From Prolixibacteraceae bacterium (lineage in GTDB: Bacteria; Bacteroidota; Bacteroidia; Bacteroidales; Prolixibacteraceae), in contig JAQUIJ010000003.1 in the NCBI GenBank assembly GCA_028683385.1, forward strand, positions 1 to 64,000: a DNA stretch of 64,000 bases, read 5' to 3'. Positions 13,146 to 60,440 of this stretch are shown piece by piece. The position numbers and the translations under genes are program-made. A model generated the notes under the pieces. It saw nothing but the letters and a program-made list of their open reading frames with translations, was not told the origin of the DNA and ran no database searches. The number at the start of each line of letters is the position of its first letter. Position 1 is the stretch's first letter.

Positions 13146-13301
13146 AATCTGTTTAATTTTAATACCTGATACAACAGCACACTCGCTGATTGTGTTCAGG
13201 TAAAATGATTTATACAAATAAAAGTTGTGGGTAAATGATAGAAAAGCAAGATAAAAAAAGCATTACGTTTTAGCATTTTTTTTCGTGGTTGCAATCAGAA
13301 C

Positions 13302-13335
13302 AAATTTATCCACATAACTGGTGCAAATGTATAAA
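13302..13335 (-). promoter_or_regulatory. Possible metK promoter region
   Basis: On the minus strand this stretch holds TACATTTG (near 13321-13330) and, about 15 bp on, TAAATTTG (near 13302-13310). Each fits TAnnTTTG; which is used is unclear. The transcript would have a leader of about 150 nt. Confidence 0.35.
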
Positions 13336-55574: not shown

Positions 55575-56051
55575 TTAAAGAATTCGTCTCAGTCTGCAAT
55601 TTGCAGTAAGCTTCAAAATTACCAGATCGCTGCCGGTTAAGAGATAAATTCCGGGCGTATTTTCTTTCCTGAAACCGCCATCTGTGCATAAGATATCTGT
55701 AATCCCTCTCATAATTTCAGTAATTATCATATCAGGGAAAAGTGCAGGAATTTTCTTGCAGATATCCAGCCACTTCACGATAGAAATTTCATCCATTCCT
55801 GAAATCTCTGGCAAAATTATTGAACTGAAACGCGAATCGAAATCAAATACGGGTAAGGCTTCGCGAACTTTTACGAAGGTAAATCCACCCAGGATAATTC
55901 CGTTGTGAAATTCGAGTCTCGCTATTTCCTGAAGCTGGCCTTCGGTATCAATGTATTCCAGCACCGAGCCATCGTCCTCAGCAATTACGATACCGTTTTT
56001 CAGCAATTCACCTGAATCTGAGATCAGGTAATTGGCCGCAAATTTTTTCAT
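55575..56051 (-). CDS. Conserved hypothetical protein
   Basis: 158 residues, acidic, no signal peptide or membrane helix. Recurrent blocks: NYLISDSGELLKNGIVIAED, LEFHNGIILGGFTFVKVREAL and IVKWLDICKKIPALFPDMI; I do not recognise a family, but the N-terminal segment suggests a metabolic-dependent protein (amidohydrolase-like N-terminal beta segment). It starts in the ATGA stop of the DUF4296 lipoprotein gene, so both are made from one mRNA. Confidence 0.6.
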   Translation of the reverse strand: MKKFAANYLISDSGELLKNGIVIAEDDGSVLEYIDTEGQLQEIARLEFHNGIILGGFTFVKVREALPVFDFDSRFSSIILPEISGMDEISIVKWLDICKKIPALFPDMIITEIMRGITDILCTDGGFRKENTPGIYLLTGSDLVILKLTANCRLRRIL

Positions 56052-56440
56052 TCTTTCTCAGCATCAAGTTTATCCTGGGGCTTGTACTGAAGTTCAGCCT
56101 CCTTGAGGTAATCCATGATTTGAACGTGCATTTTCTCGTATTCTTTTGGATAGCTGGAGTAATAAATCAGCGAACGGATAAATACGGTGTCAGGGACATC
56201 GTACTTCTTTAAAACAGAATAATACAGATCGGTTTGCGTAAGTTTTTTGTGTATCGTATCAATTTTCATGTCAATATTATATCCCTGAACAAGGTAAATA
56301 TCAACCATCATTTTAACAAACTTATCTTTTTTGATGAGCTTGTCTGGTTTTTCTATCGATGTTGAATAGCAGGATGAAAGTCCTGAAAGAATAGCTGCAA
56401 ACAGCAAAATTCCAATGAATTGTTTCATTTTACGCTTCAT
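56048..56440 (-). CDS. DUF4296 lipoprotein
   Basis: 130 residues from ATG 56440 (frame opens at a TTG five codons earlier). Lipobox GLSSC with the lipidated Cys near 23, then helical DUF4296: DKFVKMMVDIYLVQGY, IDTIHKKLTQTDLYYSVLKKYDV and the YYSSYPKEYEKMHVQIMDYL pattern. A common Bacteroidetes family without known function, often beside dihydroorotase-like genes. Overlaps the next gene by 4 bp. Confidence 0.82.
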   Translation of the reverse strand: MKRKMKQFIGILLFAAILSGLSSCYSTSIEKPDKLIKKDKFVKMMVDIYLVQGYNIDMKIDTIHKKLTQTDLYYSVLKKYDVPDTVFIRSLIYYSSYPKEYEKMHVQIMDYLKEAELQYKPQDKLDAEKE

Positions 56441-56499
56441 TAATTTCGGATTCAAAGGTAATCCGAAAAATTTAGATATGCACAGGGCAACAGACTAAA

Positions 56500-56570: not shown

Positions 56571-56619
56571 ATTAACCAACGATTCACATTTCAATTCGAT
56601 TTTCTCAGTATCATTGCAA

Positions 56620-56800
56620 CTGTGTTGTCGGTTTCCATTTATTCGGAACTAAGAGGGAATCCTGTTCGAATCAGGAGCTGTCCCCGCAGCTGTAATCCTA
56701 TATCCGCAAGGAGGTTTTGCCGGAAATAACCACTGTCCCGTTCCGGGATGGGAAGGTTGGCAAAAATCGGGAGAGCCAGAAGACCTGCCTGCAACGAGAA
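56620..56800 (+). promoter_or_regulatory. Cobalamin riboswitch, without a downstream gene
   Basis: Contains AAGAGGGAATCC (56651-), the core AGCTGTCCCCGCAGCTGTAATC (56677-; shown in two parts in the sequence) and the B12 box GCCAGAAGACCTGCC (56775-56789). GTTGTCGG (56623-56630) can pair with CCTGCAAC (56788-56795) to close the domain. These elements are diagnostic of the AdoCbl/cobalamin class. It is read on the plus strand and is followed by a terminator-like hairpin at 56877-56911. No plus-strand gene starts until beyond 59.5 kb, and radA faces the other way. Confidence 0.88.
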
Positions 56801-56876
56801 GCTTTCGGGGTAAGAGCCAAAATCCCTGGCTTCACAGGTTTCAACGCTGCCATGTTCGAAACCGTGTAACTGTTGT

Positions 56877-56912
56877 AAAAGCTGATGGTCAGGGGCCTCA
56901 GCTTTTTTTTTG
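56877..56912 (+). terminator. Terminator of the cobalamin riboswitch
   Basis: Stem AAAGCTGA (56878-56885) / TCAGCTTT (56898-56905) then nine T. It would stop the transcript after the aptamer; with ligand the 5' arm may be formed or freed. The T-run is part of a 31-nt copy of the radA 3' end. Confidence 0.65.
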
Positions 56913-56926
56913 CAAATACATGCCTG
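56895..56926. repeat. Copy 1 of a 31-32 nt direct repeat (radA 3' end)
   Basis: GCCTCAGC followed by nine T and GCAAATACATGCCTG. Copy 2 is at 57447-57477 with eight T and contains the last codons and stop of radA. Confidence 0.85.
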
Positions 56927-56987: not shown

Positions 56988-57381
56988 GTCCTCAAGCCGG
57001 ACTGGCTGTTACTTTTTCCCTACAGCTGGAAAAAGTAACCAGACCGATGTATCGGGCCGCCGCCGCTGAAGGATAAAAAGCTAAAAACCGAATGCGTTCC
57101 GCTAAAAATTTCCAAACTCCTCCCGTTGGTCGTCAAACAGGGAAATTTTCTTAACGCTCACTTCTTCCATTTTTTTAACGCTTTTTATCCTTAGGCGGGA
57201 CGACACTCATGTAGCGCATATTTGCAGATAAATTTGATAAGAGTTTTGTTCTAGGCCTAGTAATACTTCAATCGAAGCGGGTGGGTTGGCCGTCAAAACG
57301 CCCGGCAGAGGGTTAGTTTTGACAAGATTTTTGCTTCCTTTTCATCGAATGGAAAAGGAAGAGCCAGTCCGGCTTGAGGAC
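56988..57381. mobile_element. Nested-palindrome element with perfect 20-bp terminal inverted repeats (MITE-like)
   Basis: Ends GTCCTCAAGCCGGACTGGCT (56988-57007) and its exact complement (57362-57381). Just inside the left end is a hairpin GTTACTTTTTCC / GGAAAAAGTAAC (57008-57039), and just inside the right end CTTCCTTTTC / GAAAAGGAAG (near 57334-57362). The middle holds further paired segments, GGATAAAAAGC (about 57070) with GCTTTTTATCC (about 57181), and GGAAATTTTC with a related complement. No ORF. Flanks AATGATATA and AATAATATA could be a degenerate target duplication. Most likely a non-autonomous mobile element or dispersed repeat. Confidence 0.65.
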
Positions 57382-57446
57382 AATAATATACTAATTCCAC
57401 ATCAGACATTTGTGTGTTTCTCCACAAGAATTTGAATAGAAAATTA

Positions 57447-57477
57447 GCCTCAGCTTTTTTTTGCAAATACATGCCTG
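57447..57477. repeat. Copy 2 of the 31-nt direct repeat
   Basis: GCCTCAGC, eight T, GCAAATACATGCCTG; includes radA residues RHVFAKKS and the stop. Copy 1 lies 552 bp to the left. Confidence 0.85.
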
Positions 57478-58817
57478 AAAAACAATTCTACGCGATCGAA
57501 CTGCAAAATCTCAATTTTAAATTTCTGAAGATTGATTCCCTTTCCGGCTTTGGGAATAAAAATACTGTCGAAACCCAGTTTTTCGGCTTCGGCAATACGT
57601 TGTTCCAATCGGTTTACTGCACGAATCTCTCCTGAAAGCCCTACCTCGCCGGCAAAGCAGACATTTTTTCGGATCGGTAAATCAAAGTTTGATGAAAGAA
57701 TTGCGGTAATCACAGTTAAATCAATGGCCGGATCGTCCACTCTAATTCCTCCGGCAATATTCAGGAAAACATCTTTGGTAGCCAGTTTAAAACCGGCCCG
57801 TTTTTCCAGAACTGCCAGCAACATGTTTAGTCGTCGTAAATCGAATCCGGTTGATGAACGTTGCGGAGTTCCATAAGCTGCTGTGCTTACCAATGCCTGA
57901 ATTTCGATCAGCAAGGGACGAATTCCTTCGATGGCGGCTGCAATGGCAGTCCCGCTCAGCCCTTCGTGTGCACGATTAATCAAAAGTTCGGATGGATTCG
58001 AAACTTCGCGCAAGCCCGAATTACCCATCTCAAAAATTCCGAGTTCCGAAGTCGATCCGAAACGGTTTTTAATGGCTCGCAATATACGATACATGTATTG
58101 ATTTTCGCCTTCGAATTGAAGTACCGTGTCAACAATGTGTTCCAGTACTTTCGGTCCGGCAAGTGAACCTTCTTTGGTAATGTGACCTATTAAAATGACC
58201 GGTACATTGTTTTCTTTGGCGTATTTCAGGATTCCGTTTGTGCACTCGCGAATTTGTCCTACCGATCCGGGCGACGATTCAATCGATTCGGTTGAGACCG
58301 TCTGGATGGAATCGATAACAAGCAAATCGGGAGCGACTTGTTTGCTTTGTGCCAAAATGTGTTCGAGTGATGTTTCGCTCAAAAAGTAGCAGTTCTGGTT
58401 TTCTTTCTGAAGTCGCTGAGCACGTATTTTGATTTGCTGAATGCTTTCTTCTCCGGAAACGTAAAGTATTTTTTTGTTCTTCAAATCCAAAGCCAATTGT
58501 AAAACCAAAGTTGATTTGCCGATGCCGGGTTCGCCCCCGATAAGCACCATCGATCCGGGAACCAGTCCGCCTCCCAGAACCCGGTTGAGCTCTTGATTGC
58601 AGGTGTCAATACGCTCCGTATTTTCCGACGAAACTTCGTGCAAAAGTTTAGGCTGATTGCCTGTTCCGGTTAGAAATGAAGCTACGCTGGAGCTTTCGCG
58701 CTCCACAATTTCTTCAACGAAAGTATTCCACTCGCCACACGAATTGCACTTTCCAACCCATTTGGGCGATTGCGCTCCGCAATTCTGACAGAAAAAACTG
58801 GTTTTAACTTTGGCCAT
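57450..58817 (-). CDS. radA: DNA repair protein RadA (Sms)
   Basis: 455 residues. Zinc ribbon C10/C13/C25/C28-like (CQNCGAQSPKWVGKCNSCGEW in pieces), RecA-like ATPase with Walker A GGEPGIGKST and Walker B LLVIDSIQT, the RadA-specific KNRFG (near 255) and a C-terminal Lon-like domain (GGIRVDDPAIDLTV, AEVGLSGEIRAVNRLEQRI). Helicase-like factor for branch migration in recombination. The stop codon is inside the 31-nt repeat shared with the riboswitch region. Upstream, ATG 58817 after a TTTGCCACAAAGGCACAG dispersed repeat. Confidence 0.96.
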   Translation of the reverse strand: MAKVKTSFFCQNCGAQSPKWVGKCNSCGEWNTFVEEIVERESSSVASFLTGTGNQPKLLHEVSSENTERIDTCNQELNRVLGGGLVPGSMVLIGGEPGIGKSTLVLQLALDLKNKKILYVSGEESIQQIKIRAQRLQKENQNCYFLSETSLEHILAQSKQVAPDLLVIDSIQTVSTESIESSPGSVGQIRECTNGILKYAKENNVPVILIGHITKEGSLAGPKVLEHIVDTVLQFEGENQYMYRILRAIKNRFGSTSELGIFEMGNSGLREVSNPSELLINRAHEGLSGTAIAAAIEGIRPLLIEIQALVSTAAYGTPQRSSTGFDLRRLNMLLAVLEKRAGFKLATKDVFLNIAGGIRVDDPAIDLTVITAILSSNFDLPIRKNVCFAGEVGLSGEIRAVNRLEQRIAEAEKLGFDSIFIPKAGKGINLQKFKIEILQFDRVELFFRHVFAKKS

Positions 58818-58903: not shown

Positions 58904-59401
58904 TTAGTATTTGTCTTTTATCTTCTGAATGAGGTCGGTAGTCGAAAAGCCTTCTGTTAGGTCAATGCGTTCAACTTTTCCACCGGCTGCTAAAACAATG
59001 TCGAATCCGGCAATTTCCTCAATCTGGTATTCAGCTCCTTTGACTAAAACATCAGGAACAACACTTCGAATCAATTCGTAGGGAGTTTCTTCGTCAAATA
59101 AAACTACGGCATCAACCATCAGCAATGAAGCCAAAAGAATTGCCCGCGACTGCTGATCGATCAGCGGACGGTTTTCGCCTTTTAGCAGCTTCACCGAAAC
59201 ATCAGAGTTCAGGCCAACAATTAACCGGTCGCCTAAATCGGCAGCTTTAGCCAGCGAATCGATGTGTCCGCGGTGAACCAAATCAAAACAACCATTGGTG
59301 AAAACCACCGTTTCGCCGGCTTGTTTCCATCGGTTTATAACGGGAATGAACAACTGCAAGTCCGTAAATATTTTGGTCTGAATAATTTCGGTGAATGTCA
59401 T
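58904..59401 (-). CDS. rfaE2: D-glycero-beta-D-manno-heptose 1-phosphate adenylyltransferase
   Basis: 165 residues: the stand-alone nucleotidyltransferase half of HldE. Makes ADP-heptose precursor for LPS core. Cytidylyltransferase motifs: [19 protein letters not shown] (34-52, HxGH), [12 protein letters not shown], and the ISSTS-like [15 protein letters not shown] end. The matching kinase half (rfaE1) is elsewhere. Same strand as radA but separated by a repeat. Confidence 0.92.
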
Positions 59402-59591
59402 TTCTTCAAAAGTATTTCTGTAAAAGTAATAAAACTTGTTGTTTCGAATATAGTTTTAGCTCATTCATCTTTTCAAGTCCGGAATTTAAATCTGTTCCGG
59501 TACTTCAGAAAAAATATTTCTAATTTTGTCGGAATTGTTACTTAACCGGCCAACCCAAATAAACACTCATCGATCAGAATGAAGAATATCC

Positions 59592-60440
59592 GTGCGTTGC
59601 ATTTTCTCGTTTATTTTCAGATTTTTCCCTTTGTTTTTGGGTGCCCAAAGCTTAATGAAGGGTTCCGAAAACTTGTCTTTACCTGTGCGCAATTATTTGG
59701 TCTATCAGTCTACCGGCTCCATGACTATTGATGGGAAGGCGGATGAACCTTCGTGGAATTATGCTGCCTGGACTGAAAATTTTGTGGATATTGAAGGACC
59801 TTTGAAACCCAAGCCAACATATCAAACCCGTGTGAAAATGCTTTGGGATAGCAACTACTTATACTTGTTGGCTGAGCTTGAAGAGCCTCATATTTGGTGC
59901 TATTACCGTCAACATGATCAAATCGTTTACCACGAGAATGATTTTGAAGTATTTATTGATTCCGATGGCGATGCGCTTAATTATTTTGAGTTTGAGTTGA
60001 ATGCTGCCAATACGTTATTCGATTTGTTTCTTCCAAAACCATACAGTTGCGGGGGAAAAGCGCTCCTGACGTGGGATGCAGAAGGATTTAAAAGTGCAGT
60101 TTCGATTGATGGAACGCTCAATAACCCGAACGATCGGGATAAAAAATGGACGCTGGAAATGGCTATTCCGTTTAAGTCGCTCAAAATGGAAACAGAAACA
60201 GAAACAGACGTACCGGCGGATGGCACAATCTGGAAGATTAATTTCTCGCGTGTGGAGTGGCAAACCAATGTTGTCAAAGGAAAGTACGAGAAAAAGAAGG
60301 ACGGGAAAACGGGTCAGTTTTTAAGCGAAAATAATTGGGTGTGGAATGCTACTGGCGAAATAAACATGCACATCCCTGAGCGTTGGGGATTGCTCCAGTT
60401 CTCCACACGATCGGTCATTACCGGAAAATTAAAAAATTAA
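59592..60440 (+). CDS. CBM9-like carbohydrate-binding protein, probable frameshift in signal peptide
   Basis: 282 residues from a GTG at 59592. After residue ~35 it matches the carbohydrate-binding family-9-like domain: GSMTIDGKADEPSWNYAAWT, MLWDSNYLYLLAELEEPHIW, FEVFIDSDGDALNYFEFELN, AIPFKSL and FSRVEWQ, with the end GLLQFST. An ATG at 59579 in another frame encodes MKNIRALHFLVYFQIFPFVFG, a perfect signal peptide; removal of one G from GGG at 59639-59641 would join it to AQSLMKGSENL. So the true gene was probably 59579-60440. Secreted, binds plant or other polysaccharide; followed by a glycosidase-like gene 3 bp on. Confidence 0.78.
   Translation: MRCIFSFIFRFFPLFLGAQSLMKGSENLSLPVRNYLVYQSTGSMTIDGKADEPSWNYAAWTENFVDIEGPLKPKPTYQTRVKMLWDSNYLYLLAELEEPHIWCYYRQHDQIVYHENDFEVFIDSDGDALNYFEFELNAANTLFDLFLPKPYSCGGKALLTWDAEGFKSAVSIDGTLNNPNDRDKKWTLEMAIPFKSLKMETETETDVPADGTIWKINFSRVEWQTNVVKGKYEKKKDGKTGQFLSENNWVWNATGEINMHIPERWGLLQFSTRSVITGKLKN

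Follow-up and report, generated by a model that had tools for sequence, protein, structure and literature searches.

What might a complete cobalamin (B12) riboswitch regulate when no gene follows it? The question arises near the end of the window (the whole 64,000-nt stretch analysed, from the genome called G000 below), where an earlier note had described a cobalamin aptamer and a terminator read toward the end of radA, with no gene to control for over 2.6 kb. A search with Rfam RF00174 placed a complete class-I cobalamin aptamer at positions 56612–56806 of the + strand (102.6 bits, E = 1.5e-24, model positions 1–189); the gathering score of that model is 31.5 bits, and the aptamer is therefore a class-I member. 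Judged by its score, it is not degenerate, a doubt that the note had raised itself. Folding revealed a hairpin and a U-run downstream of the aptamer, at 56877–56911, which puts the end of the RNA at ∼56911; a simple terminator scan gave no entry there, the hairpin being bulged, with a long loop. The RNA points toward the 3′-end of radA (57450–58817, − strand), and the next plausible + strand gene start lies at 59592, ∼2.7 kb downstream, in agreement with the distance originally reported. No convincing + strand gene was found to start between 56912 and 59592: the ORFs of at least 40 aa on that strand are all ≤114 aa; they fall inside a palindromic element or run antisense to either radA or the following − strand gene, the ORF at 59264–59545 only partially. 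The window genome has five cobalamin riboswitches, scoring 97.3–104.3 bits. Since an ORF starts 82–147 nt further on in the other four, only the copy at 56612–56806 is a genuine orphan. Elsewhere in the window there is also a SAM-II riboswitch (13260–13319, − strand, 55.5 bits). The features of the locus are these:

56048–56455, − strand: DUF4296 gene (PF14129), the divergent neighbour, the same partner in 18/18 members of the RNA family described below
56609–56616, + strand: putative −7 promoter box TATCATTG, just upstream of the aptamer, a motif recognized by eye and not a tool score
56612–56806, + strand: class-I cobalamin aptamer, full length
56681–56686, + strand: aptamer loop L5, UCCCCG
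56801–56817, + strand: P13 hairpin, with L13 (CGGGG, 56806–56810) complementary to L5
56798–56833, + strand: competing helix X, with an outer part GAAGC (56798–56802)/GCUUC (56829–56833) and an inner part CGGGG (56806–56810)/CCCUG (56824–56828)
56823–56828, + strand: switch segment UCCCUG, with L13 and the terminator loop as alternative pairing partners; CCCUG is invariant in 18/18
56837–56863, + strand: hairpin B, with the loop motif CUGCC
56865–56873, + strand: conserved linker UGUAACUGU
56877–56911, + strand: intrinsic terminator identified by folding, with the loop segment CAGGGG (56890–56895), invariant in 18/18
56895–56926, + strand: direct repeat of the radA 3′-end, the other copy being at 57447–57477
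56990–57382, no strand assigned: dispersed palindromic element between the two radA-end copies, not part of the RNA
57450–58817, − strand: radA, the convergent neighbour, with its stop codon within the second copy of the terminator 3′ arm

The palindromic element is MITE-like, with terminal inverted repeats of 29 nt that are 93% alike. Of the 23 genus genomes, 18 have relatives of it, the window genome (with one further copy) among them, and many of these relatives consist of the last ∼110 nt only. The two copies of the radA end are spaced 551 bp apart, and neither the RNA terminator nor the radA frame was disrupted by the insertion with the element. Among the members compared, the element is inserted at the RNA locus only in the window genome; G012, the nearest relative by radA, as well as G003, G008 and G014, have the same RNA without the element and still have no gene there. 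The element does not explain the orphan state: a replacement of the controlled gene by it was rejected, and the proposal that this gene had been lost is not supported either. In G013 and G016, a radA-end-like copy follows the RNA terminator beside a DUF4468-type gene; it is as if the slot between the terminator and radA took up DNA repeatedly.

The 23 genomes of the genus contain 79 cobalamin riboswitches, ten of the stand-alone type and 69 ordinary ones. A crude terminator test, requiring a perfect stem of at least 6 and then at least 5 T before the next gene, was positive for 9/10 of the stand-alone type versus 0/69 of the ordinary ones, while a gene of at least 120 aa started within 300 nt in 2/10 versus 66/69. 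The tenth terminator and a third downstream gene are found on another contig of G013, and the three ordinary exceptions without a near gene correspond to frames that open upstream (G010, G012) or that look broken (G004). The L5/L13 pair reads UCCCCG/CGGGG in all ten stand-alone members, loops that by complementarity could pair with each other. Among the 69 ordinary riboswitches it reads UACCCG/CGGGA in 44 and UGCCCG/CGGGA in 2, the remaining loops being resolved incompletely by the pattern (L5 only in 2, L13 only in 1, neither in 20; L5 is thus unresolved in 21/69); L5 is UACCCG or UGCCCG in 48/69. In G004, which lacks the stand-alone RNA, cobalamin riboswitches precede metE and, as judged by eye, a ribonucleotide reductase-like gene (L121, G004:C20).

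To define the distribution of the RNA, model R1, built with the 3′ domain of the ten genus members, was searched against 140 family genomes, some of them incomplete. Matches with E values up to 0.01 were obtained in 44 of the 140, of which 18 were accepted (≥52.9 bits; G013, where the RNA is on two contigs, was counted once). They include eight further strong members in other genera (52.9–107.6 bits), all eight with a cobalamin aptamer (99.7–120.5 bits) and all eight divergent from DUF4296. Aptamer, 3′ domain and terminator are common to 18 species in 6 genera, Prolixibacteraceae where named; within the genus the RNA is present in 10/23 genomes and was not found in 13/23. Twelve weak matches (L158–L169, 30.8–37 bits) were inspected and not taken as members: they resemble ordinary riboswitches, and a same-strand ORF begins from −43 to +324 relative to the end of the match. 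A further 14 matches, at 22.1–29.6 bits, lay outside this inspection. An order-wide search of 295 genomes under strict filters matched only the window genome. A terminator-only pattern run over 84,980 species matched 15 contigs, each with an RNA already found: they belong to Gaoshiqia, Mangrovibacterium (2), Sunxiuqinia (2) and Puteibacter, all Prolixibacteraceae genera, to strain JC049 and, for the rest, to MAGs labelled Prolixibacteraceae or Bacteroidota/Bacteroidetes bacterium. Named isolates bearing the RNA include Mangrovibacterium marinum DSM 28823, M. lignilyticum, Sunxiuqinia elliptica, Puteibacter caeruleilacunae and Gaoshiqia sediminis. A radA tree was built from 26 genomes, of which 12 bear the RNA, and leaves 10 of its 23 inner forks open; on it the presence and absence of the RNA requires five changes, with carriers on early branches (G034, G036, G005) and a patchy presence inside the genus. 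The tree and the conserved synteny fit an old RNA that would have been lost repeatedly. That it was not found in 13/23 genus genomes, and was accepted in only 18/140 family genomes, indicates that it is dispensable in many species.

All 18 members are divergent from the DUF4296 gene. In 15 of them no same-strand gene follows the RNA, as far as the downstream DNA examined reaches (only 452 nt in G014 and 270 nt in G135), so that the controlled gene expected directly downstream of a cis-acting leader is missing in these 15. In the eight out-of-genus members, no same-strand ORF past the terminator exceeds 141 aa, and those that occur overlap longer ORFs on the opposite strand; G036 has no same-strand ORF of 80 aa within 1.5 kb past the terminator. 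When the locus was compared within the genus (all genomes except G002 and G007), seven RNA-less genomes (G020, G010, G017, G019, G001, G004 and G021) showed a radA-DUF4296 gap of just 15–71 bp, while the locus of G006 has 636 bp without a match to the RNA or to a gene. With no conserved feature recognized downstream, the likely product is the RNA itself. The explanation that we favour, with a probability of about 0.6, is a stand-alone riboswitch-RNA gene of ∼290 nt with this RNA as its product, which would act in trans or bind a partner. A stand-alone regulatory RNA made in response to B12 had been among the suggestions of the earlier note; architecture, synteny and conservation back it, its responsiveness to B12 being putative. 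The RNA looks like a member of a small conserved family of stand-alone B12 sensors with their own terminator, confined so far to one bacterial family.

The nature of the convergent gene bears on a different reading, in which B12 controls termination and the read-through product is an antisense RNA against radA. In G012, G003, G008 and G014 the RNA lies between radA and DUF4296 with its terminator fused with the radA end (intergenic regions of 409–447 bp), and in G034 and G142, from other genera, it likewise ends at the radA end; the radA stop is thus in or near the terminator in these six genomes, and beyond the element in G000, while it is more distant in G135 (175 nt), G134 (885 nt) and G036 (∼2.2 kb). 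A helix between UCCCUG and CAGGGG could serve as an antiterminator, and there is a precedent in Listeria AspocR, an antisense RNA under a B12 riboswitch that, like the RNA studied here, combines a cobalamin riboswitch, a non-coding product, a terminator and a neighbour gene on the opposite strand (PMC8079631). However, the RNA is kept in G005, G018, G152, G106 and G133 facing a convergent ORF other than radA (in G018 and G005 it is away from radA and DUF4296 is still divergent), and in G013, G016 and G022 a + strand gene intervenes. Nor is radA known to have a B12-related role. Unlike an RNA with one conserved antisense target, this one is maintained while its convergent gene changes from member to member, and a PocR-like target was not found. 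As an explanation, antisense action on radA is rather unlikely, though it may occur in those members that have radA as neighbour.

The + strand gene just mentioned is of the DUF4468 type, an assignment for which the Pfam match (PF14730) was checked on the G022 protein only. It lies between the terminator and radA in G016 and G022, starting 159 and 176 nt after the aptamer, respectively, and beyond a contig break in G013. The locus could thus be the relic of an ordinary attenuator whose controlled gene, of DUF4468 type or other, was lost; in some members the slot lies between copies of the radA end, which makes a deletion by recombination possible. Nevertheless, G009 and G011, and G015 with a truncated copy where its contig ends, carry a DUF4468-type gene in this slot but have no RNA there, and the RNA loci of the deeper members examined (G005, G034, G142 and G036) lack such a gene. 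It is unlikely that this gene was the original target. A relic should moreover decay, yet the 3′ domain outlasts the silent sites of radA. Among genus members other than G013, the 3′ domain shares with G000, out of 119 positions, 119 in G012, 114 in G003, 112 in G008, 111 in G014, 108 in G022, 118 in G016 and 112 in G018 (104/120 in G005), while identity at radA four-fold sites is 70, 56, 50, 46, 43, 49, 42 and 41%, respectively. The silent sites of radA are near saturation while the 3′ domain hardly changes; outside the genus this domain is much less alike (89/136 in G036, 77/148 in G034). We consider the relic improbable.

Two further ideas fare worse. Control of an overlooked small ORF in or after the RNA might be suggested by NTG-TAA start-stop-like triplets seen by eye in the linker in 17/18 rows of the alignment, but it is most improbable, since no conserved ORF was recognized across members, the hairpin B stem and the insertions differ in sequence and length, and the sequence past the terminator differs as well. 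Hardly more credible is an RNA that buffers or scavenges cobalamin, for which its amounts would in our judgement probably be insufficient, or that serves only as a two-way terminator for radA: the terminator does overlap the radA stop in several members, but termination alone would call for neither an aptamer nor L13 nor hairpin B, and members with radA elsewhere have retained the RNA.

The alignment of the 18 members (A4; 17 distinct sequences) contains the invariant blocks UUUCGGGG, CCCUG, CUUxA, CUGCC, GUAACUG, GCUG, CAGGGG and CAGCU. A TA(N)2-3TTG box was recognized by eye at the place of the putative promoter in the 17/17 members listed (G013 left out); it resembles the Bacteroidetes element TAnnTTTG. 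P13 (56801–56817) is paired in 94.1% of cells, with one pair being C-G in 9 and U-A in 5 of the 17 sequences; its covariation score was reached by 5/500 shuffles, and a +1 slide gave 0.306 versus 0.356. Two rows with misses, G034 and G142, are apparently shifted in the alignment. The outer pairing of helix X holds in 98.8%, with two of its pairs altered at both positions (a number reached by 27/500 shuffles), and the inner part is 100% paired and never varies. In the best fold of the window RNA, the inner helix X is shifted by one (GGGGU:AUCCC), which is 0.9 kcal/mol better; forcing helix X costs 0.1–3.0 kcal/mol relative to the best fold (in G034 only the inner part was forced). The UCCCUG:CAGGGG helix is paired in 99% of cells and is invariant apart from one unpaired cell, for which reason covariation is no test of it. 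Hairpin B folds in 18/18 members (z from −1.8 to −4.7 versus mononucleotide shuffles) even with its stem sequence replaced between genera (GGUUUC/GAAACC, GCUCCC/GGGAGC, CAAGUCG/CGACUUG and others). A hairpin A (GAGCC/GGCUUC) included in the first model, R1, turned out to be genus-only, its pairs being broken in 5/6 of the next-best members shown; P13 and helix X take its place in the structure model. The invariant GUAACUG (56866–56872) has no pairing partner inside the RNA that could be found by eye. A similar UUGUAAUU precedes the start codon in some ordinary riboswitches of the genus.

According to the favoured reading, the stand-alone RNA gene would comprise, from 5′ to 3′, its own promoter, the class-I aptamer, P13/L13, a switching segment, hairpin B, the linker and the intrinsic terminator; it would need no downstream gene, its action being in trans or through a bound partner. 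In corrinoid riboswitches the ligand-bound state has an L5-L13 kiss that stabilises P13 (PMC10653944). L13 can pair with either L5 or UCCCUG, and UCCCUG with either L13 or CAGGGG, from which we infer that B12 would release UCCCUG. When B12 is bound, L13 (CGGGG) would kiss L5 (CCCCG) and P13 would form, and the freed UCCCUG would pair with CAGGGG of the terminator loop and mask it. Without B12, UCCCUG would be held by L13 in helix X and the CAGGGG loop would be exposed. B12 would thus set the access of a partner to CAGGGG/UCCCUG. Since all three folds examined have the terminator whether helix X is present or not, any dependence of termination on B12 would be hypothetical.

Partners were sought among possible targets. 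A perfect 11-nt complement of the terminator loop, searched for in 8 genomes, was found only at the own RNA locus and at one unshared site in G000 (a reversed-pattern control gave 0–3 sites per genome). As a trans target, metE was rejected, being present in 3/10 RNA-bearing versus 2/13 RNA-less genus genomes, which reveals no association; three short complements sought in 6 metE loci were not found. EutX of Enterococcus is a B12 riboswitch RNA with a function in trans, the sequestration of EutV. An ANTAR search gave matches in 0/18, its control being silent as well, and EutB was found in 1/23 genus genomes (G018, which bears the RNA) and not in the window genome.

The B12-riboswitch-driven free-standing RNAs found in print (PMC8079631) are Firmicutes examples. 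Among them, Listeria Rli55 is an RNA under a B12 riboswitch that sequesters EutV; a function in trans is what it would share with the RNA studied here. The same paper describes SreA, a Listeria SAM riboswitch whose terminated RNA can act as an sRNA. SreA also controls genes in cis, while the RNA studied here has no same-strand gene in 15/18 members within the DNA examined. This RNA is of RF00174 class I, whereas PMC11477304 assigns the riboswitches of ethanolamine genes in Listeria and Enterococcus to class IIb. The corrinoid riboswitch of P. megaterium metE shares with it the L5-L13 kiss and mutually exclusive structures around the terminator (PMC10653944), but riboswitches of that type control a downstream gene. 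Among the open-licence papers listed by the literature searches, none showed such an RNA in Bacteroidota.

In the phylum Bacteroidota, uptake of B12 shapes communities. We tentatively propose, at somewhat less than even odds, that the RNA represents a lineage-specific Bacteroidota family of B12-sensing, trans-acting RNAs, in which riboswitch, effector domain and terminator would be united in one free-standing gene; lacking the ANTAR sequestration of the Firmicutes type and a fixed antisense target, it would use a three-way competition between L13, UCCCUG and CAGGGG to expose or hide the effector loop. Riboswitches driving free-standing RNAs are rare, and 18 natural versions are available here in Bacteroidota. 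The family makes testable the idea that a riboswitch aptamer may be coupled directly to an sRNA effector.
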